From assembly GCF_000564855.1 (NCBI RefSeq), contig NZ_AYXG01000103.1, positions 1 through 64,000 of the forward strand: DNA of 64,000 nucleotides, in the 5' to 3' direction. Position numbers and translations under genes: made by a program. Source of the stretch: Actinokineospora spheciospongiae (lineage in GTDB: Bacteria; Actinomycetota; Actinomycetes; Mycobacteriales; Pseudonocardiaceae). Positions 282-8,916 of the stretch are shown one piece after another; within the stretch, counting starts at the first letter, position 1, and every line of letters begins with the position of its first letter. A model generated the notes under the pieces. The model was given only the letters and a program-made list of their open reading frames with translations, did no database searches and was not told the origin of the DNA.

Positions 282-1643
282 TCAGGCGCGGAGGTCGCCG
301 TGGGTGCGGTGCCAGGGGGTGACGGGGTCCAGGGATTGGGTGAGTTCTTCGGTGAAGATGGCCAGTTTGTGGGCGATGACCTCCTCGCCCAGCAGGGTGG
401 GGGCGAGTTTGGAGGTGGCGAGGCGGTGTTGGGCCTCCCAGGGGGTTCGGGCGAGGTCGCCCTGGACGCGGCCCTCGGGTGGGGGGTCGAGGCGGTCGGT
501 GATGCCGGAGAGGCCTGCGGCGAGGAGGGCGGCGACGACCTGGTGGGGTTGGGCGTCGGCGCCTGCGAAGCGGGCCTCCAGGCGGAGGTTGGGGCCCTGG
601 CCGGCCAGGCGGACCGCCGTGGTGCGGTTGTCGGTGCCCCAGCCGACCTGGCGGGGGGAGAACGGTGCCGTGCGGAGCCTGACGTAGGAGTTCCAGGTGG
701 GGGCCCAGAACGCCGTCAGGTCCGGGGCGGCTCGGAGGACACCCGCCAGGAAGTGGCCGAAGAGGGTGGACATTTCCGTGGGGCGGGCTCCCGCGCCCAG
801 AGGGGCACCGCCGGGGTCGTTCAGGGAGACGTGCACGTGGCAGGAGCTGCCGGTGTTGGGGGCTTCGGCGGCGAGGTAGCCGGCTCGGACGCCCACTGCG
901 GCTGCGGCGGCTCGGACGGCCAGTTGTTGGAGCATGGCGTCGTCGCAGGCGGCGAGGGGGTCTCGGTGGCGGAGGACGTACTCGTACTGGGCGGGGTGGA
1001 CTTCGCCCCGGGCGGATTCCAGGCCGAGGTCCAGTTCGTCGAGTGCTGTGTCCACTGCGGACAGGACGGTGCGCAGCGGGGTCAGCGCGTGGACCGCGTA
1101 GTCGAGGCCGGTGGGGGTGAGCGGGGTTCCCTCGGGGGTGGTGAAGGTGACCTCGTGCTCGATGCCGACGGACGGGACGACACCGACCTGTTCCAGGGCG
1201 GCGAGTTGGTCGCGCAGGGTGGTGCGGGGGGCTTCCGGGACGGGGCGGCCGTCGGGCCACTCGACGTCGCAGACCACCAGCCAGGTGGCGGGGCGGCCGG
1301 GGGCGGGGGCGAGGGTGGCGAGGTCGGGGCGGAGGCGGAGGTCGCCGTAGCCGCCGAGGAACTGGTCGACGGCGGGGGCGTTGATGACCTCGCGCTCAGC
1401 GTTGGTGCCGAACAGGTAGGCGCACATGCCGTAGCCGCTGGGCAGGACGGAGTCGACGAAGAAGGGGGCGCCCAGTTCGACCGCGTCGAAGCGGGCGTGC
1501 GGGTCGGGGACGAGGCAGACGACGCGGCGGATGCTGCCGTCGGCGACCGCGTCGCGGAGTCGGCCCGCGAGGGCGGAGGCCTTGCGGGCGCGGTCGGCGA
1601 GTGGGCGGGGGCCGACCGGGCGGCGGTGGTCGAGCAGGGTCAT
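282..1643 (-). CDS. Glutamine synthetase-like gamma-glutamyl ligase
   Basis: A 453-residue GlnA-family protein. The GS catalytic motifs are present in order: GIEHEVTF (about 160-167, metal-binding Glu residues), GSSCHVHVSL (about 265-274), NSYVRL (about 318-323) and the WGTDNR arginine near 340, so an ATP-dependent ligase is likely. It resembles the divergent GlnA3/GlnA4-type group (gamma-glutamyl polyamine or amino-acid ligases) more than true GlnA, whose NPYL segment is here QPHQ. It lies 64 bp downstream of the IucA/IucC synthetase on the same strand and is probably the last gene of the siderophore operon. I infer, without proof, that it acts on a diamine or siderophore precursor rather than on ammonia. 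The ATG start excludes an N-terminal shadow extension running through the upstream gene. Confidence 0.85.
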   Translation of the reverse strand: MTLLDHRRPVGPRPLADRARKASALAGRLRDAVADGSIRRVVCLVPDPHARFDAVELGAPFFVDSVLPSGYGMCAYLFGTNAEREVINAPAVDQFLGGYGDLRLRPDLATLAPAPGRPATWLVVCDVEWPDGRPVPEAPRTTLRDQLAALEQVGVVPSVGIEHEVTFTTPEGTPLTPTGLDYAVHALTPLRTVLSAVDTALDELDLGLESARGEVHPAQYEYVLRHRDPLAACDDAMLQQLAVRAAAAAVGVRAGYLAAEAPNTGSSCHVHVSLNDPGGAPLGAGARPTEMSTLFGHFLAGVLRAAPDLTAFWAPTWNSYVRLRTAPFSPRQVGWGTDNRTTAVRLAGQGPNLRLEARFAGADAQPHQVVAALLAAGLSGITDRLDPPPEGRVQGDLARTPWEAQHRLATSKLAPTLLGEEVIAHKLAIFTEELTQSLDPVTPWHRTHGDLRA

Positions 1644-1707
1644 CTGGCGGTCTCCGGGTGGGGCGGGCACGGGGGCCACGCGTCCACTGTGGTCGATGGG
1701 GGTCGGG

Positions 1708-3468
1708 TCACCAGGCGCCCTGGGGGTCCGGGGCGGCGAGGGGGTTGCGGGCGCGGCCGGAGCGGACGTCGAACTCGTCGTCCCGGTCGATCTTGTCGAA
1801 GCCCTGGCCCGCGAGGTGTTCGCGGTTGAGGCAGACGCGTTCGACGTCGGGGGCGAACAGGCCGCAGGCGTCGAACCGGGTGGTGGTGGCCGGGTGCGCG
1901 TCGCGGTAGGCGGCGACGATTTCGCGGACGTGGGACCACAGGCGGGGGCGGGGGTAGTCCAGGTCGTCGTAGAGGATTTCGGCGAGGAACCTGAGTTGGC
2001 CCGCGAAGACGGAGCTGAACAGCGATTGCACCAGGAGGTGGGCGGGCCAGCGGAGCATGTCCGCCGAGGCGGCGGTGCCGAGCAGTTCGTAGGCGGGGAG
2101 TTGTTCGTCGAGCAGGTCCACGCCCTGGGCGAAGTCCTTGATGGCCACGCGCAGGGGCACCCCATCCCCGTCCGTGATGAGGATGAGGTTCTGGCCGTGG
2201 GGGCAGAAGCCGACGCCGTGTTCCAGGAGCCAGTGCAGCAGTGGGGTCAGCGCGAGGTCGAGGGTGCGGCGCAGCCACTCGTCGGCGGTCAGGCCGGAGG
2301 AGGTGATCAGGTGCGCGATGACGGACTCGCCGTCGGGGCCCCGGTACGGCAGTGCGGCGAACGACAGGGCCCGCTCCCCCGGTGCCAGGCGGGTGCGGAT
2401 CGGTTCCCGCCACAGCGCGCCCAGGGTCTCGTGGAACCGGTACGGCAGTTCCTCGACCGCGCCGAACAGCGGGTGCCGCACCGACACGCTGGCCACCTCG
2501 CCGAGCAGGTCGAAGCGGTACTCGTCGCGCAGCAGCGGGTCGGACTCGTGGACGGTGCGCAGCCAGGTGGTGACCTCCGGCGCGGCCAGGGTCGCCGCCG
2601 AGGCCAGGCCCCGGTAGACGAGGGTGTTGCGGACCGACACCGCCGTCTTGACGTCGCGGCGGGCGGGGTCGGTGGTGTTGGCCAGGGTCCGCACGGTCTG
2701 GTGCGGCCGGTACCGGTCGCGGCTCTCCCCCACCGGGACGACCACGCCGGTGGCCACCTCGGCTGCGTAGAGGGTGCCGATGATCTCGTCCGCCTGCCAC
2801 GGGTGGACCGGGACCAGCACGTAGTCGTGCGGGGAGTCCAGCTTGGCGCGGAACTCGGCGAGCAGTTCGGCGCCGAGTTCGTCGGTGAGCAGGCTGTCGG
2901 CGGTGAGCCCGTCGACGCAGCGGAAGGCGGCGTGGTCGCGGTGCACGGCCAGCCACGGCAGGGCGAACGTGCGGCCCGACTCGGGGGCGTAGCGGTCGCG
3001 GTCGGTGGCGGAGAAGCCGACGCGGCCCTTGTTGAGCACGATGCGGGGGTGGCCGGTGAGGTGGCTGTCGGCGGTGTCGTAGTCGAGGGTGAGCAGTTCC
3101 GCGGCGGTGACCGCGCGGTCGAGGCGGGCGGCCTCGTTGGCGACGGTGGCGGTCAGCTCGGCCAGCACGTCGGCCAGCCGCAGCCCGGTGAGGCCCAGTT
3201 CGGCGCGGGCGTCGACGACGAGCGCGCGCGGGTCGTCGGCGGGGGCGCCGTCGCGGGTGGCGCTGCCCGCGCGGACCGACCAGGACTCGAAGGCGCCCGG
3301 TCGGGCGGCGAACCGGTAGACGGCGCCGCCCGCGAGGTCGAGCCGCCAGGGGCGGTGGCCGCGGTCGTCCGGTTCGCCGTCGGGCACCGGGCGCAGCAGG
3401 CCCTCGTAGCTGAGTTCGCCGAGCGCCTTGTGGGTCACCAGTGACCCGGCCTCGCGCCACGCCGTCAC
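1708..3468 (-). CDS. desD: NIS siderophore synthetase, IucA/IucC family (DesD-like)
   Basis: A 586-residue nonribosomal-peptide-synthetase-independent siderophore synthetase, the usual family length. It adenylates a carboxylate and condenses it with an amine or hydroxylamine. Visible family motifs are KTAVSVRNT (about 273-281), HPWQ (222-225), HGQN (424-427) and KDF (444-446), the last two in the FhuF-like C-terminal half. The GTG start at 3468 overlaps the stop of the monooxygenase gene by GTGA, implying translational coupling; the longer frame upstream runs into that gene. In desferrioxamine pathways DesD oligomerises N-hydroxy-N-succinylcadaverine. The gene symbol is given by analogy; the actual product could differ because no DesC is nearby. 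Confidence 0.9.
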   Translation of the reverse strand: MTAWREAGSLVTHKALGELSYEGLLRPVPDGEPDDRGHRPWRLDLAGGAVYRFAARPGAFESWSVRAGSATRDGAPADDPRALVVDARAELGLTGLRLADVLAELTATVANEAARLDRAVTAAELLTLDYDTADSHLTGHPRIVLNKGRVGFSATDRDRYAPESGRTFALPWLAVHRDHAAFRCVDGLTADSLLTDELGAELLAEFRAKLDSPHDYVLVPVHPWQADEIIGTLYAAEVATGVVVPVGESRDRYRPHQTVRTLANTTDPARRDVKTAVSVRNTLVYRGLASAATLAAPEVTTWLRTVHESDPLLRDEYRFDLLGEVASVSVRHPLFGAVEELPYRFHETLGALWREPIRTRLAPGERALSFAALPYRGPDGESVIAHLITSSGLTADEWLRRTLDLALTPLLHWLLEHGVGFCPHGQNLILITDGDGVPLRVAIKDFAQGVDLLDEQLPAYELLGTAASADMLRWPAHLLVQSLFSSVFAGQLRFLAEILYDDLDYPRPRLWSHVREIVAAYRDAHPATTTRFDACGLFAPDVERVCLNREHLAGQGFDKIDRDDEFDVRSGRARNPLAAPDPQGAW

Positions 3469-4745
3469 GTCGCACTCCCCTCGGTTGTCGAGTCCCCAGT
3501 GAACCCGAAAGTGGTGTAGGCCGTGCGCTCCGGGAGTCGGTGCACGACCCGCCCGCAGACCGAGTTCAGGATCGTCGCCGCCCGCCACGCGGCCAGTCCC
3601 AGGTCCGGTGCGCCCACCCCGTGCGTGTGGCGTTCGGCGTTCTGCGCGTAGAGGCGGCCAGCCACCCCCGGGCGCAGCGCGACCCGGTAGTCACCGTCCA
3701 CGACGAGCTTGCCCTCGTCGTCGTGGGCGGGCAGGTCGCCGAGGAGCCCGCCCAGGTCGCGCTCCGCGTAACCCGTGGCGCACACGACCTCGGTGGTGCG
3801 CAGCGAGCTGGTCGTCCCCTGGTCGACGTGCCGCAGCCGCAGCCGCACCCCGTCCGGTGCCCCGGTCGCCGCCACGACCTCGACGCCGGGGGCGAGGGTG
3901 GCGTCGGGCCAGCCGCCGCCGACCGTGCGCCGGTACAGCTCGTCGTGGATCTCGGCGATGGTCTCGGCGCTGATCGCCTTGTGGAGCTGCCACTGCGCGG
4001 GCACCAGGGCGGCGCGGACCGGGCCTGCGAGACCGCGGAAGTAACGGGTGTAGTCGGGGGTGAACTGCTCCAGCCCCAGCTTGGAGTACTCCATCGGCGC
4101 GAAGGCCCTGGTCCTGGTCAGCCAGCGCACCGCGCCCCGGCGGCGGCGGAGCAGGTCGAGGAACACCTCGGCGCCCGACTGCCCGGAGCCGATGACGGTG
4201 ACGTCGTCGGCCTCGACCAACCGGTCACGGGCGGCGAGGTACTGCGCGGAGTGGGTCACGCGGTCCAGTCCCCGTAGTAGTTCCGGTAGTACGGGACCGG
4301 TTCCCACACCCAGGACGACCGAGCGCGCGAGAACCCGCTCACCGCCCACATCGAGTACGAACGCCTCTTCGGTGTCGGACCACCGGACGGACTCCACCGG
4401 GCTGTCGAACCGGCAGGGCAACCGGCGCGCGGCCCACCGGCAGTAGTCGTCGTACTCCGCGCGCGGGATGTGGAACTTCTCGGCGAAGTAGAACGGGAAC
4501 AGGCGGTCGTGCGCGCGCAGGTAGCTCAGGAACGACAACGGGTGCGCGGGCTCGACCAGGCTGACCAGGTCGGCCAGGAACGGCACCTGGAGCGTCGTCC
4601 CGTCGATCATCATCCCCGGGTGCCACCGGAACCCGGGTTCGCGCTCGAAGAAGGCGGTCGACAGCCCGTCGACGCCGTCGGCGAGCGCAGCCAGCGACAG
4701 GTTGAACGGGCCGACGCCGATGCCCGCGAGGTCGAGCGGGGTCAT
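3465..4745 (-). CDS. desB: Lysine/cadaverine N6-hydroxylase (DesB-like flavin monooxygenase)
   Basis: A 426-residue FAD/NADPH-dependent N-hydroxylating monooxygenase of the IucD/DesB group, which converts a terminal primary amine to a hydroxylamine for hydroxamate siderophores. The FAD site GIGVGPFNLSL is at residues 8-18, the NADPH-binding GSGQSG at 176-181, and an ATGYA motif lies in the C-terminal third. The ATG at 4745 overlaps the stop of the decarboxylase gene (ATGA), and its own stop overlaps the IucA/IucC start. Placement directly after a decarboxylase suggests the substrate is cadaverine or a related diamine rather than free lysine; this is inferred from gene order. Confidence 0.9.
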   Translation of the reverse strand: MTPLDLAGIGVGPFNLSLAALADGVDGLSTAFFEREPGFRWHPGMMIDGTTLQVPFLADLVSLVEPAHPLSFLSYLRAHDRLFPFYFAEKFHIPRAEYDDYCRWAARRLPCRFDSPVESVRWSDTEEAFVLDVGGERVLARSVVLGVGTGPVLPELLRGLDRVTHSAQYLAARDRLVEADDVTVIGSGQSGAEVFLDLLRRRRGAVRWLTRTRAFAPMEYSKLGLEQFTPDYTRYFRGLAGPVRAALVPAQWQLHKAISAETIAEIHDELYRRTVGGGWPDATLAPGVEVVAATGAPDGVRLRLRHVDQGTTSSLRTTEVVCATGYAERDLGGLLGDLPAHDDEGKLVVDGDYRVALRPGVAGRLYAQNAERHTHGVGAPDLGLAAWRAATILNSVCGRVVHRLPERTAYTTFGFTGDSTTEGSAT

Positions 4746-6085
4746 CCCGCCCGCCCGGCGACGAGGTCCAGCAGCGGCGCGTAGTCCTCGACCGCGGTGT
4801 GCGGGTGCAGCAGCGTCAGCTTGAGCCACAGCTCGCCGTCGACCTGGGCCCGGCCGAGCACGGCGGTGCCCGAGCTCAGCAGGTCGCGGCGGATCTCGGC
4901 GACCCGGGCGTCGGGGGCGTCGACCGGCCGGAACAGGACCGTCGACAGCGTCGGCTCCGCCCACAGCCGCAGCCGGGGGTGGGCGCGGACGGCACCGGCG
5001 ACGGCGGTGGCGGTGTCGCAGCAGTGGTCGACCAGGGCGCCGACCCCGGAGCGGCCCAGCGCGCGCAGCGTGACGGCGATCTTGAACGCGTCCGGGCGGC
5101 GGGACGTGCGCAGCGAGCGGCCGAGCAGGTCGGGCAGGCCGGCCTCGGTGTCGTCGTCGGCGCTGAGGTAGTCGGCGCTGGTGCTCAGCGCGCGCAGGAC
5201 CCCGGAGTCGGCGCAGACGAGCAGGCCCGCCGCGATCGGCTGCCAGCCGAACTTGTGCAGGTCGAGGGCGACGGAGTCGGCCTGGTCGAGCGCGGGCAGG
5301 GACCGGCGGTCGCTGAACAGCAGCGCGCCGGCGTAGGCGGCGTCGACGTGCAGCCACGCCCCGGCCGCGCGGGCGGTGGCGGCGATCTCGGGCAGCGGGT
5401 CGAGGGCGCCGGTGTTGGTGGTCCCCAGGGTGGCCACGACCACGGCCGGGCCCGCGACCCGCGCCAGTGCGGCGCCGAGCGCGGCCGGGTCCACCCGGTC
5501 GTCCACGCAGTCGACCGGCACCGGCTCGGCCAGCCCCAGCAGCCAGGCCGCGCGGGCGACGCTGTGGTGGGCGTTGCGCCCGCAGACGACCGTCACCCGC
5601 CCCAGGGTCTCCCTGGCGAGCAGCAGCGCGATCAGGTTCGACTCGGTGCCGCCGGTGGTGACCAGCGCGTCCGGCGCGGGGGCCGCCGGGTGGCAGAGCC
5701 GGGCCAGTCCCCTGGTCAGCTCGCCCTCCAGCTCGCTGGCCACCGGCGCCTGGTCCCAGGAGTCCATCGACGGGTTGAGCACGCTGGCCACCAGGTCTGC
5801 CGCGGCGGCCACGGCCAGCGGCGGGCAGTGCAGGTGCGCCGCGCACCACGGGTCCGCCGGGTCGGCCGACCCGGCGGCGAACCGCCTGGTCAGCGCGGCC
5901 AGCGCGGCGACCGCGCCGATCCCGGTGGCGGGCACCGGGTCGTCGGCGACGGCCAGCGCCGCGGGTCCGCCCGCGGGCACCGGCCCGCCGCGCTGGCGAG
6001 CCCCCTCGGCCAGGGCGTCCAGCGCCACCGACACCAGGGCGCGCACCGCGTCCGGCGCGGCCAGGGCCGCGGGCTCGTAGGTCAT
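4742..6085 (-). CDS. desA: PLP-dependent lysine/diaminobutyrate decarboxylase (DesA-like)
   Basis: A 447-residue group II PLP-dependent decarboxylase of the DesA/diaminobutyrate-decarboxylase type. TGGTESN (144-150) and HVDAAY (246-251) form the cofactor site and LHKFGW places the Schiff-base lysine at 278. By analogy with desferrioxamine synthesis it would convert L-lysine to cadaverine, the first step of the pathway. It is the first gene of the operon. The ATG start is preceded by a purine-rich ribosome-binding stretch (GAAGGGG on the minus strand) and, 24 bp farther, by an iron-box-like sequence, so iron repression is likely. Diaminobutyrate or ornithine as substrate cannot be excluded from sequence alone. 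Confidence 0.87.
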   Translation of the reverse strand: MTYEPAALAAPDAVRALVSVALDALAEGARQRGGPVPAGGPAALAVADDPVPATGIGAVAALAALTRRFAAGSADPADPWCAAHLHCPPLAVAAAADLVASVLNPSMDSWDQAPVASELEGELTRGLARLCHPAAPAPDALVTTGGTESNLIALLLARETLGRVTVVCGRNAHHSVARAAWLLGLAEPVPVDCVDDRVDPAALGAALARVAGPAVVVATLGTTNTGALDPLPEIAATARAAGAWLHVDAAYAGALLFSDRRSLPALDQADSVALDLHKFGWQPIAAGLLVCADSGVLRALSTSADYLSADDDTEAGLPDLLGRSLRTSRRPDAFKIAVTLRALGRSGVGALVDHCCDTATAVAGAVRAHPRLRLWAEPTLSTVLFRPVDAPDARVAEIRRDLLSSGTAVLGRAQVDGELWLKLTLLHPHTAVEDYAPLLDLVAGRAG

Positions 6086-6195: not shown

Positions 6196-7038
6196 TCAGA
6201 AGCCGCCCTCGGCCGCCGCCACCGCGTGCCGCAGCAGCAACGCCGTGGTCACCGGCCCGACGCCGCCCGGAACCGGGGACAGCACGCCCGCGACCCCGTC
6301 GACCGACGCCGCCTCGACGTCGCCGACGAGCGACCCGTCCGCCGCGGTGTTCGTGCCCACATCAATCACGACCGCGCCCGGCGCCACGTGCTCGGCGGTC
6401 ACGAAGTCCGCCCGTCCGATGGCCACGACCAGCACCTCGGCCGTGCGCGCGACGGCGGGGAGGTCGACGGTCCGCGAGTGCGTCACGGTCACCGTGGCGT
6501 CGGCGCGCAGCAGCAGTTGCGCGACCGGCTTGCCGACCACGGCGCTGCGCCCGATGACGACCGCGCGCTTGCCGCTGAGCGGCACCCCGTGGTGGGCCAG
6601 CAGCTCCAGGCACGCCTCGGCGGTGGCCGGGGCGAACGCCGGGGTGCCGATGACCAGGTTGCCCGCGCTGACCGGGCTCGCCCCGTCGATGTCCTTGGCG
6701 GCCGGGATGAGGTGCGCCAGGTCGGTGAGGGACACGCCCTTGGGCAGCGGCGTCTGGAGGATGATGCCGTGCGTGCCGTCGTCGGCGGCCAGCTCGGTCA
6801 GCGTGGCCGCGATCGCCTCGACGGTGGGGTTCTCCACGGTGTGGATGACCGCGCGGACCCCGACCTTCTCGGCGGCCTTGACGATCGACCGCACGTACCA
6901 GAGCGTGCCGTCGTCGTCGGTGGCCACGACGATGGCCAGCGCCGGGGTGACCCCGGAGGCGGTGAGCTTCGCGGCGCGCTCGGCGACGTCCGCGCGGATG
7001 GCGGTGGCGAGTGCCTTGCCGCTCAGGTTCTCAGCCAC
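6196..7038 (-). CDS. folD: FolD-like methylene-THF dehydrogenase lacking the cyclohydrolase lysine
   Basis: A 280-residue FolD-family protein with the NADP-binding GRSAVVGKPVAQLLL and C-terminal PVPGGVGPVT signatures. FolD normally carries both 5,10-methylene-THF dehydrogenase and methenyl-THF cyclohydrolase activities, the second needing the lysine of the YVxxK motif. Here the stretch reads YVRSIVK (48-54), with isoleucine where that lysine belongs; the active-site Gln (QTPLP, about 95) and Asp (KDIDG, about 118) are kept. I infer a dehydrogenase-only enzyme. The gene overlaps the upstream cyclohydrolase-family gene by 8 nt, which would supply the missing step. A second, complete FolD may exist elsewhere in the genome. 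Confidence 0.88.
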   Translation of the reverse strand: MAENLSGKALATAIRADVAERAAKLTASGVTPALAIVVATDDDGTLWYVRSIVKAAEKVGVRAVIHTVENPTVEAIAATLTELAADDGTHGIILQTPLPKGVSLTDLAHLIPAAKDIDGASPVSAGNLVIGTPAFAPATAEACLELLAHHGVPLSGKRAVVIGRSAVVGKPVAQLLLRADATVTVTHSRTVDLPAVARTAEVLVVAIGRADFVTAEHVAPGAVVIDVGTNTAADGSLVGDVEAASVDGVAGVLSPVPGGVGPVTTALLLRHAVAAAEGGF

Positions 7039-7651
7039 GCAGACCCTCCCGGACGCGCTCGACGATCCCGCGGGCGCGCTCGATCGCCCCGGTCAGCTCG
7101 GTGACGGTGGCGCGCAGGCCGTCGGCGACCTCGGCGTCCTTGATCGAGGCCACGTTGATCTCGATGTTGACGATCGCGGACTCCAGCGCGGCGGCGGCGC
7201 TGGAGGCGGCCACGGCCACGTCGGAGACGACGTTCGGGTTGCCCCGCTCGACCAGGCCGTCGGCCAGCTCGACGATCCGGGTGGCGACCCGGCCGACCTC
7301 GGCGGGCGGCTGCGCCGCGCCGCGCAGCGCGGCCTGGATCGCGGTGCGGCGGGCGGCCTTGTCCTCGTCGGTGGCGCGGGGCAGGCCGTAGGCGGCGCCG
7401 ACCGCGGCGAACGCCTCGGCGTCGGCGGCGGCCAGGGCGAGGGCCTGCTCGCGCAGCAGGTCGGACTCGGCCTTGACGGCCAGCATGTCGGCTTCGCGGT
7501 CGGCCCACTTGCCCCCGGTGGTGTACGAGCTCACCATGCCGACCAGCGAGGCGCCGGTCGCGGCCAGCAGCGCGGCCGCGCCGCCCCCGCCGGGCGTGGG
7601 GGTACGATCCCCGAGTTCGGCGAGCCACGAGCCGATAGTCGAATCCTTCAT
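7031..7651 (-). CDS. fchA: Cyclodeaminase/cyclohydrolase family protein (FchA-like)
   Basis: A 206-residue, mostly helical protein of the formiminotransferase-cyclodeaminase C-terminal family. The family hallmark TPTPGGGGAAALLAATGASL lies near residues 17-36, followed by ALAAADAEAF and NPNVVSDVAVA. Stand-alone members act as methenyl-THF cyclohydrolase (FchA) or formimino-THF cyclodeaminase. Coupling with a FolD that lacks the cyclohydrolase lysine favours methenyl-THF to 10-formyl-THF conversion. No histidine-degradation genes are nearby, which argues against the cyclodeaminase role. A TACTAT box 7 nt before the ATG suggests a leaderless transcript. Confidence 0.85.
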   Translation of the reverse strand: MKDSTIGSWLAELGDRTPTPGGGGAAALLAATGASLVGMVSSYTTGGKWADREADMLAVKAESDLLREQALALAAADAEAFAAVGAAYGLPRATDEDKAARRTAIQAALRGAAQPPAEVGRVATRIVELADGLVERGNPNVVSDVAVAASSAAAALESAIVNIEINVASIKDAEVADGLRATVTELTGAIERARGIVERVREGLRG

Positions 7652-7658
7652 GGCCCGG

Positions 7659-7664
7659 ATAGTA
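7659..7664 (-). promoter_or_regulatory. -10 box for leaderless fchA-folD transcript
   Basis: On the minus strand TACTAT ends 7 nt before the fchA ATG, the typical spacing of actinobacterial leaderless promoters. It sits in the 38-bp gap shared with the divergent folC-like gene. Confidence 0.5.
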
Positions 7665-7689
7665 ACCGGGCTCGCCGATCGGGAGACGC

Positions 7690-8916
7690 GTGCGGGAGCG
7701 GCGGGACTTCAGGTCCCTGGACGAGGCCGCGGCCGAGCTGTACCGGTTCGTCCCGGGCAGCGCCGCGCTGCGCGTCGGCTACTCCCTCGACCGGCTGCGG
7801 TCCTTCCTCGACGGCATCGGCGCACCGCAGGACCGCCTGCGGGTCGTGCACGTGGCGGGGACCTCCGGCAAGACCTCCACCGCCTACTTCGCCCGCGCCA
7901 TGCTGCAGGAGGCCGGGCTGCGCACGGGGCTGACCGTGTCGCCGCACATCACCTCGGTCACCGAGCGGGTGCAGGTCGACGGGGAACCGTTGCCGGAACC
8001 GGTTTTCCTGGAGCTGCTGGGCCGGTTCCTGCCGAAGGTGACCGGGCCGCTGACCTACTTCGAGGTGCTGGTCGCCTTCGCCTACTGGGCGTTCGCCGAG
8101 CTGGGTGTGGACGTCGCGGTGGTCGAGACCGGACTGGGCGGCCTGCTCGACGGGACCAACACCGCCACCCGGGCCGACAAGGTGTGCGCGATCGGCGACA
8201 TCGGCCTCGACCACACCGAGGTCCTGGGCGAGACCCTGCCAGAGATCGCCGCGCAGAAGGCCGGGATCATCCACCCCGGCAACACCGCGCTGCTGCTGGC
8301 GCAGGACCCGGTGGCCATGGCCGTCGTGCGCGAGCACGCCGACCGGGTGGGCGCGGCGCTGACCGTGGTGCACGACGAGGGCCCCGCCGACCTGCCGCTG
8401 TTCCAGCGCCGCAACTGGTCCCTGGCCAGGGCGGCGACGTCGGCGGTCCTGGGCCGGGCGGTGACGCCGTCGGCGCTGGTGTCCGCGCAGCCGCCGGGCA
8501 GGCTGGAACAGTACGGCGACCTGGTGCTCGACGGCGCGCACAACCCGCAGAAGCTCGACGCGCTGCGGGAGAGCCTGGCCGAGCGCGGGGTGACCTCGGC
8601 GGCGGTGCTGGCCAACCTGCTGGTGTCGCCCCCGGCGAAGCTGGACGCCGCCCTGCTGGCGCTGCTCCCGCTGGCGGCCCACCTGGTGGTCCCGGAGTTC
8701 ACCGTGCTCGGCGACCTGCCGAAGCGCTCCGTGCCCGCCGTGGAACTGGCCGAGCGGGCCACCGCGCTGGGGTTCGCCTCGGTCGAGGTGTGCCCCGGGC
8801 TGGCGGAGGCGCTGGCCGCGCTGCGGGGCCGGCCGGAGCCGACGCACCTGGTCACCGGGTCGCTCTACCTGGTCAGCCAGGTGCGGGCGCTGCTGTCGGA
8901 CCCAGGGCACAGGTGA
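7690..8916 (+). CDS. folC: Folylpolyglutamate/dihydrofolate synthase-like Mur ligase (FolC-like)
   Basis: A 408-residue Mur-ligase-fold protein. The P-loop GTSGKTST is at 57-64, SPHITSVTERVQVDG follows the family Omega-loop region, ETGLGG matches the central metal/ATP motif, and DGAHNPQK marks the C-terminal glutamate-ligase domain. Such enzymes add glutamate to folates using ATP. The gene is divergent from fchA-folD with only 38 bp between, so the three may form one folate-processing module. It is slightly shorter than typical FolC (about 420-450 residues) and may be a paralogue. The GTG start is preceded by GGGAGA. Confidence 0.85.
   Translation: MRERRDFRSLDEAAAELYRFVPGSAALRVGYSLDRLRSFLDGIGAPQDRLRVVHVAGTSGKTSTAYFARAMLQEAGLRTGLTVSPHITSVTERVQVDGEPLPEPVFLELLGRFLPKVTGPLTYFEVLVAFAYWAFAELGVDVAVVETGLGGLLDGTNTATRADKVCAIGDIGLDHTEVLGETLPEIAAQKAGIIHPGNTALLLAQDPVAMAVVREHADRVGAALTVVHDEGPADLPLFQRRNWSLARAATSAVLGRAVTPSALVSAQPPGRLEQYGDLVLDGAHNPQKLDALRESLAERGVTSAAVLANLLVSPPAKLDAALLALLPLAAHLVVPEFTVLGDLPKRSVPAVELAERATALGFASVEVCPGLAEALAALRGRPEPTHLVTGSLYLVSQVRALLSDPGHR

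Follow-up and report, generated by a model that had tools for sequence, protein, structure and literature searches.

The window analysed here, a 64,000-nucleotide stretch of an Actinokineospora spheciospongiae contig, encodes a FolD in which isoleucine occupies the place of the catalytic cyclohydrolase lysine, and its gene overlaps that of an FchA-family protein. Very probably the two are a dehydrogenase and a cyclohydrolase of catabolic origin that have taken the place of the bifunctional FolD. A sequence-only reading of this DNA had proposed such a division of labour between FolD and FchA, and the proposal is strongly supported by the clade-wide loss of the lysine, the tight linkage to FchA and the existence of genomes that have only the pair. 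The analyses described below show the sequences, the linkage, the phylogeny and the gene losses. We use the name FolD2 for the lysine-less FolD clade, which extends across the Actinomycetes.

From sequence we predict the enzyme activities, the direction of flux and the role of the neighbouring folate ligase as follows. FolD2 would oxidise 5,10-methylene-THF to 5,10-methenyl-THF; hydrolysis of this product would lie beyond it, because the cyclohydrolase lysine is replaced by isoleucine, and FchA would hydrolyse methenyl-THF to 10-formyl-THF. Most likely the pair had its origin in methyl-group catabolism, where it oxidised the carbon released by betaine/dimethylglycine/sarcosine demethylation in a route that ends with PurU and formate. 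In several lineages, that of the window genome included, it would have replaced the bifunctional FolD, leaving purine and formyl-methionine synthesis with no other enzymatic source of 10-formyl-THF. The probable task of FolC2, encoded next to the pair, is to attach glutamates to the folates that FolD2-FchA uses or is co-regulated with.

The gene pair and its active sites

The features of the locus are:

6196..7038, minus strand: FolD2, predicted monofunctional methylene-THF dehydrogenase, 280 aa, with PF00763 and PF02882
6883..6885, minus strand: codon 52 of FolD2, Ile at the catalytic cyclohydrolase Lys (E. coli K54), from alignments
7031..7038, minus strand: fchA/folD overlap of 8 nt, GTGGCTGA, from the sequence
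7031..7651, minus strand: FchA, predicted methenyl-THF cyclohydrolase of the FTCD_C family (PF04961, 8.8e-53)
7652..7689, no strand: intergenic region of 38 nt between the divergent fchA and folC2, from coordinates
7690..8916, plus strand: FolC2, a second folylpolyglutamate-synthase-like protein (TIGR01499, 246.7 bits, cut-off 162.65)

Both FolD domains are present in the window protein (PF00763, 3.2e-24; PF02882, 6.3e-56). Alignment with solved FolDs, gap-free around the motif, sets Ile52 of YVRSI at the lysine of YVxxK, and Tyr48, Gln95 (in ILQTPLP) and Asp118 (in KDIDG) are retained; the earlier description of an isoleucine for the catalytic lysine, with Gln95 and Asp118 kept, is thus borne out by alignment. 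That reading had also named what would speak against it, a lysine supplied from elsewhere in the protein. Comparison of residues across the clade found no FolD2-specific conserved lysine able to replace the missing one, which rules this out; Lys54, adjacent to the site, varies among relatives (N, R, G or T). An AlphaFold model built from three sequences was poor (pLDDT 56) and was set aside. In E. coli FolD, where the role of this residue (K54) has been studied, the K54N enzyme keeps about 19% of dehydrogenase activity and has undetectable cyclohydrolase activity, and K54N strains grow very slowly, surviving through spontaneous hydrolysis of methenyl-THF (PMC5688156). By analogy with that drop to 19%, FolD2 must in some way compensate for the support that the lysine gives to the dehydrogenase; as a guess, T40, W47, A56, T96 and the ATAxA segment of FolD2 may do so.

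The PF04961 match of FchA covers residues 6–183 of 206, so that the protein is an FTCD_C domain without a formiminotransferase domain. Against the NCBIfam FchA profile it scores 182.7 bits (5.7e-54), below the 275-bit equivalog cut-off, and we therefore place it in the wider FTCD_C/FchA-like group. Its best solved relative is PDB 7vg4 (2.3e-37), an FchA annotated as methenyl-THF cyclohydrolase. The 8-nt overlap recurs, by coordinates, in A. bangkokensis and A. pegani, and suggests translational coupling of fchA and folD. Both this overlap with a cyclohydrolase-family gene and the FolC-like gene lying back to back are as the sequence-only reading had described them; the divergent starts are 38 nt apart.

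It might be supposed that FolD2 is a dehydrogenase only, that methenyl-THF is hydrolysed spontaneously and that FchA has some other task, such as formimino-THF cyclodeamination. FTCD_C does also cover cyclodeaminases, the step from methenyl to formyl can occur unaided, and E. coli K54N mutants are viable; those strains, however, are very slow-growing (PMC5688156). Formiminotransferase was found in 0 of the 13 genomes tested, which makes a cyclodeaminase role unlikely and led us to reject a place for FchA within a formiminotransferase system. Since, in addition, the annotation of 7vg4 is that of a cyclohydrolase and FchA is bound up with the lysine-less FolD, we regard this alternative as very improbable and keep to FchA as the cyclohydrolase of the pair.

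Downstream of folD, and co-directional with fchA-folD, lies a siderophore-type row (282-6085, minus strand) of glutamine-synthetase-like, IucA/IucC synthetase, Lys/Orn N-monooxygenase and PLP decarboxylase genes, which is kept in two close relatives as well. We rejected a functional tie to the pair, as adjacency is all the evidence for one.

The lysine-less clade and its linkage to FchA

By identity to the window protein, the FolDs of 201 Pseudonocardiaceae genomes fall into two groups, one at 55% or above (57 genomes) and the other at about 41–47%. All 40 proteins read in the first group have Ile or Leu at the lysine position, nearly all with QTPLP, whereas all 20 read in the second have Lys and none has QTPLP. 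Sampling was then widened to the phylum, the class and plasmids, with Embleya, Nonomuraea and (Paen)arthrobacter records among those read. Of the 159 FolDs compared in all, 100 lack the lysine (87 Ile, 11 Leu, 2 Ala) and the other 59 have it. On this basis the loss is confirmed as a real feature of FolD2 and not a chance one. The Ile/Leu FolDs form one clade (FastTree, 0.995; quick IQ-TREE, SH-aLRT 92), and a careful tree holds all 39 retained lysine-less rows together, the YEGGA form included, with support of 98/86. The residues that mark it out are T40, W47, I52, A56, T96, V263 and T265, and A138-A140-A142 in contrast to the C-P-G of other FolDs. A survey of actinobacteria for the YVRSI variant and its neighbours had been suggested from the sequence; it returned this Ile/Leu clade, usually beside FchA. 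We found no earlier description of an actinobacterial lysine-less FolD clade in the open-access literature, and to our knowledge no enzyme of the clade has a published assay.

The YEGGA form belongs to family f26 (G235, G284; L132, L168, L207), where the lysine-less FolD directly follows the FchA gene and has FAPLP where others have QLPLP. Seven other genomes of this family were read and have a FolD with Lys; the three of these that were tested are without FchA. As to whether the YEGGA FolD (L132/L168) represents a separate loss of the lysine, two trees place it outside the other lysine-less FolDs and the careful tree groups it with them.

FchA stands directly upstream of 88 of the 100 lysine-less FolDs and of 0 of the 59 with Lys. 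Among the 201 Pseudonocardiaceae genomes it occurs in 57/57 with FolD2 as against 7/144 without (Fisher 9e-43, uncorrected for relatedness); one of those seven, G082, also has a FolD2 apparently interrupted by a frameshift. The 12 lysine-less FolDs that do not have FchA directly upstream come in part from genomes with more than one FolD match; they are:

L064: one locus in a fragmented draft
L109, L110, L240: genus g49, of which at least G436 and G251 carry FchA at another place in the genome
L267-L273: seven loci of family f91, in genomes listing more than one FolD match
L217, 7989-8870: Paenarthrobacter plasmid pYJN5-2

Plasmid pYJN5-2 is conjugative; its lysine-less FolD2 is annotated as bifunctional, and FchA is absent within 8 kb. 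Genus g17 (L210 and similar; G016, G056, G087, G109, G126) has FchA-family genes and no FolD2, and the FolDs sampled there have Lys.

The operons of relatives give the pair a metabolic setting. In 20 of 41 loci FolD2-FchA occurs together with PurU and sarcosine oxidase genes, and the neighbours comprise SoxB/D/A/G, a DMGO-like protein, PurU, SdaA, GlyA and a GbcA-like protein; the demethylation loci often add the DMGO-like protein, serine dehydratase, GlyA, the GbcA-like betaine monooxygenase, FolP and PabB. Such operons are devoted to glycine-betaine/sarcosine demethylation, in which methyl groups are passed onto THF and oxidised to formate, and a strong one-way flux from methylene- through methenyl- to formyl-THF would be expected in them. 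The FolD2/FchA genes of G101, a genome of the window's genus, adjoin DUF4420, Z1-domain and C5 DNA methylase genes in a defence-like island (L044, 1-7000).

A different cause for the loss can be imagined, namely that the lysine was given up mainly to evade carolacton or another natural product aimed at FolD, with FchA then retained as compensation. Carolacton hydrogen-bonds to the catalytic lysine of FolD, and the residual dehydrogenase of E. coli K54N is completely insensitive to it (PMC5688156); the hosts, moreover, are soil bacteria likely to encounter such compounds. The lysine-less clade is, however, widespread, fixed and linked to demethylation in the 20/41 loci, which catabolic specialisation fits better, and we hold the escape from an inhibitor to be very unlikely.

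Gene losses, the window genome and FolC2

The window genome (G000) is a Pseudonocardiaceae draft of 7.5 Mb in 262 contigs, and its nearest named relatives, Actinokineospora bangkokensis and A. pegani, have the same FolD (84–85% identity), FchA and FolC. A genome-wide search of this draft returned one FolD, FolD2, and one FTCD_C protein, FchA; neither a second folD nor a formate-THF ligase was found in it, and a bypass through the latter enzyme was accordingly rejected. To look for a second complete folD and folC had been an early suggestion: there is no second folD, but there is a second folC. As no other FolD, formate-THF ligase or FchA gene is present, methylene-THF is predicted to reach 10-formyl-THF only through FolD2-FchA; 10-formyl-THF is presumably still required, since PurU, PurN-like and Fmt-like genes are retained. 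The window's contig stops short of the expected folD site, so that the loss of folD in this genome rests on the genome-wide search.

The ordinary folC lies on contig C98, and FolC2 is 33% identical to its product. FolC2 has the standard FolC motifs (P-loop GTxGKxS, SPH, ER, LDH, KAGI and DGAHN). Among FolD2 loci it is found only in the window and two close relatives, that is, in three Actinokineospora genomes; the idea that the pair has a dedicated folate ligase is therefore supported in part. Distant relatives of FolC2 (about 37% identity) occur in G045 and G078. Their FolC locus (L208, 3170-12384, and L209) has MetF-like, PurU, FolD with Lys, and LigA/LigB genes, with a GcvT-like gene on the other strand, and is apparently one of aromatic O-demethylation. 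This hints that FolC2-type ligases are associated with one-carbon catabolism. A modified cofactor had also been raised, and FolD2, FchA and FolC2 could be imagined to form a dedicated pathway whose folate is modified or carries a special glutamylation: FolC2 is a second ligase adjoining the pair, its distant relatives lie in a one-carbon catabolic locus, and some FolD2 operons contain FolP and PabB genes. Yet FolD2 is the sole FolD of the window genome, and the pair therefore has to handle the ordinary folate pool. Moreover, FolC2, standard in its motifs, is missing from most FolD2 loci, and no unusual pterin gene was found. We found no evidence in favour of a modified cofactor and judge such a pathway most improbable.

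The replacement of the housekeeping enzyme extends beyond this draft. In 10 Pseudonocardiaceae genomes of two genera no FolD but the lysine-less one passes the Pfam cut-off, and formate-THF ligase (FTHFS) is absent from all 10; two of them, G086 and G184, are single-contig. The lysine-bearing folD of congeners lies near purN and purH, and in G168, G086 and G184 this neighbourhood is kept with its flanks, canonical folD is missing and no remnant of it is detectable there; in G184 the small gene that follows folD is retained, with about 155 nt at the expected place of folD. The housekeeping folD has thus been deleted from beside purN-purH, and the split pair kept, in at least two Pseudonocardiaceae lineages. 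G101, with a FolD of each type, may be at an intermediate stage. Outside the Pseudonocardiaceae, G436 and G251 have the lysine-less FolD alone, with FchA elsewhere in the genome. Nine genomes of family f91 (L258-L266) show a single lysine-less FolD among the matches listed, with FchA upstream and few candidates scored, and are probably a further case. It is likely, then, that a dehydrogenase-only FolD with FchA, coming from methyl catabolism, has repeatedly displaced the bifunctional FolD in actinobacteria (in an Actinokineospora subclade, a subclade of genus g16, genus g49 and probably family f91), which would make one-carbon supply to purines and formyl-methionine dependent on the split pair.

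Known systems and significance

FolD is usually regarded as one bifunctional, essential enzyme and a drug target. FolD2 resembles it in fold and in domains along the entire protein, in the active-site Tyr, Gln and Asp and in the cofactor loop GRSxxVGKP, and differs from it in forming a separate clade with Ile for Lys, AxAxA for CxPxG and QTPLP for QLPLP. Similarities and differences are also evident with four other systems: (i) MtdA of Methylobacterium is a dehydrogenase without cyclohydrolase activity, partnered by the FTCD_C-family cyclohydrolase Fch/FchA. The comparison with MtdA/FchA made at the outset holds by analogy, in that a cyclohydrolase-free dehydrogenase goes with a separate FTCD_C-family cyclohydrolase, and fails in that the window dehydrogenase is, by its Pfam and PDB matches, a FolD and not MtdA, in an actinobacterial host. 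(ii) Yeast MTD1 (PDB 1edz), reportedly a subject of Barlowe and Appling in 1990, is a monofunctional NAD-dependent methylene-THF dehydrogenase. It too is a dehydrogenase-only protein of the FolD family, but is very distant in sequence (8.9e-07 over 36 residues) and has no FchA partner. (iii) Acetobacterium woodii and other acetogens have an fhs-fchA-folD cluster in which fchA and folD are annotated as separate cyclohydrolase and dehydrogenase (PMC3315566, PMC6925170). There the clustered genes serve, with fhs, the anaerobic Wood-Ljungdahl pathway, whereas the window has no fhs, a link to demethylation in relatives and a sole FolD. (iv) In the folD-purU MABO operon of plasmid pAO1, FolD and PurU likewise dispose of amine-derived methyl groups, but that FolD is described as bifunctional (PMC6214936), in contrast to the predicted monofunctional FolD2. 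Taken together, FolD2-FchA is probably an undescribed variant of the known dehydrogenase-plus-FchA kind.

A large actinobacterial clade labelled as bifunctional in databases is thus very likely to be dehydrogenase only, and metabolic models and gene names for FolD2 and FchA would then need correcting. The FolD2-only genomes, with the standard gene cleanly deleted, are a natural experiment in which a bifunctional enzyme of central metabolism has been split in two. In such strains we would predict FchA to be important or essential, and inhibitors anchored on the catalytic lysine to meet with resistance.
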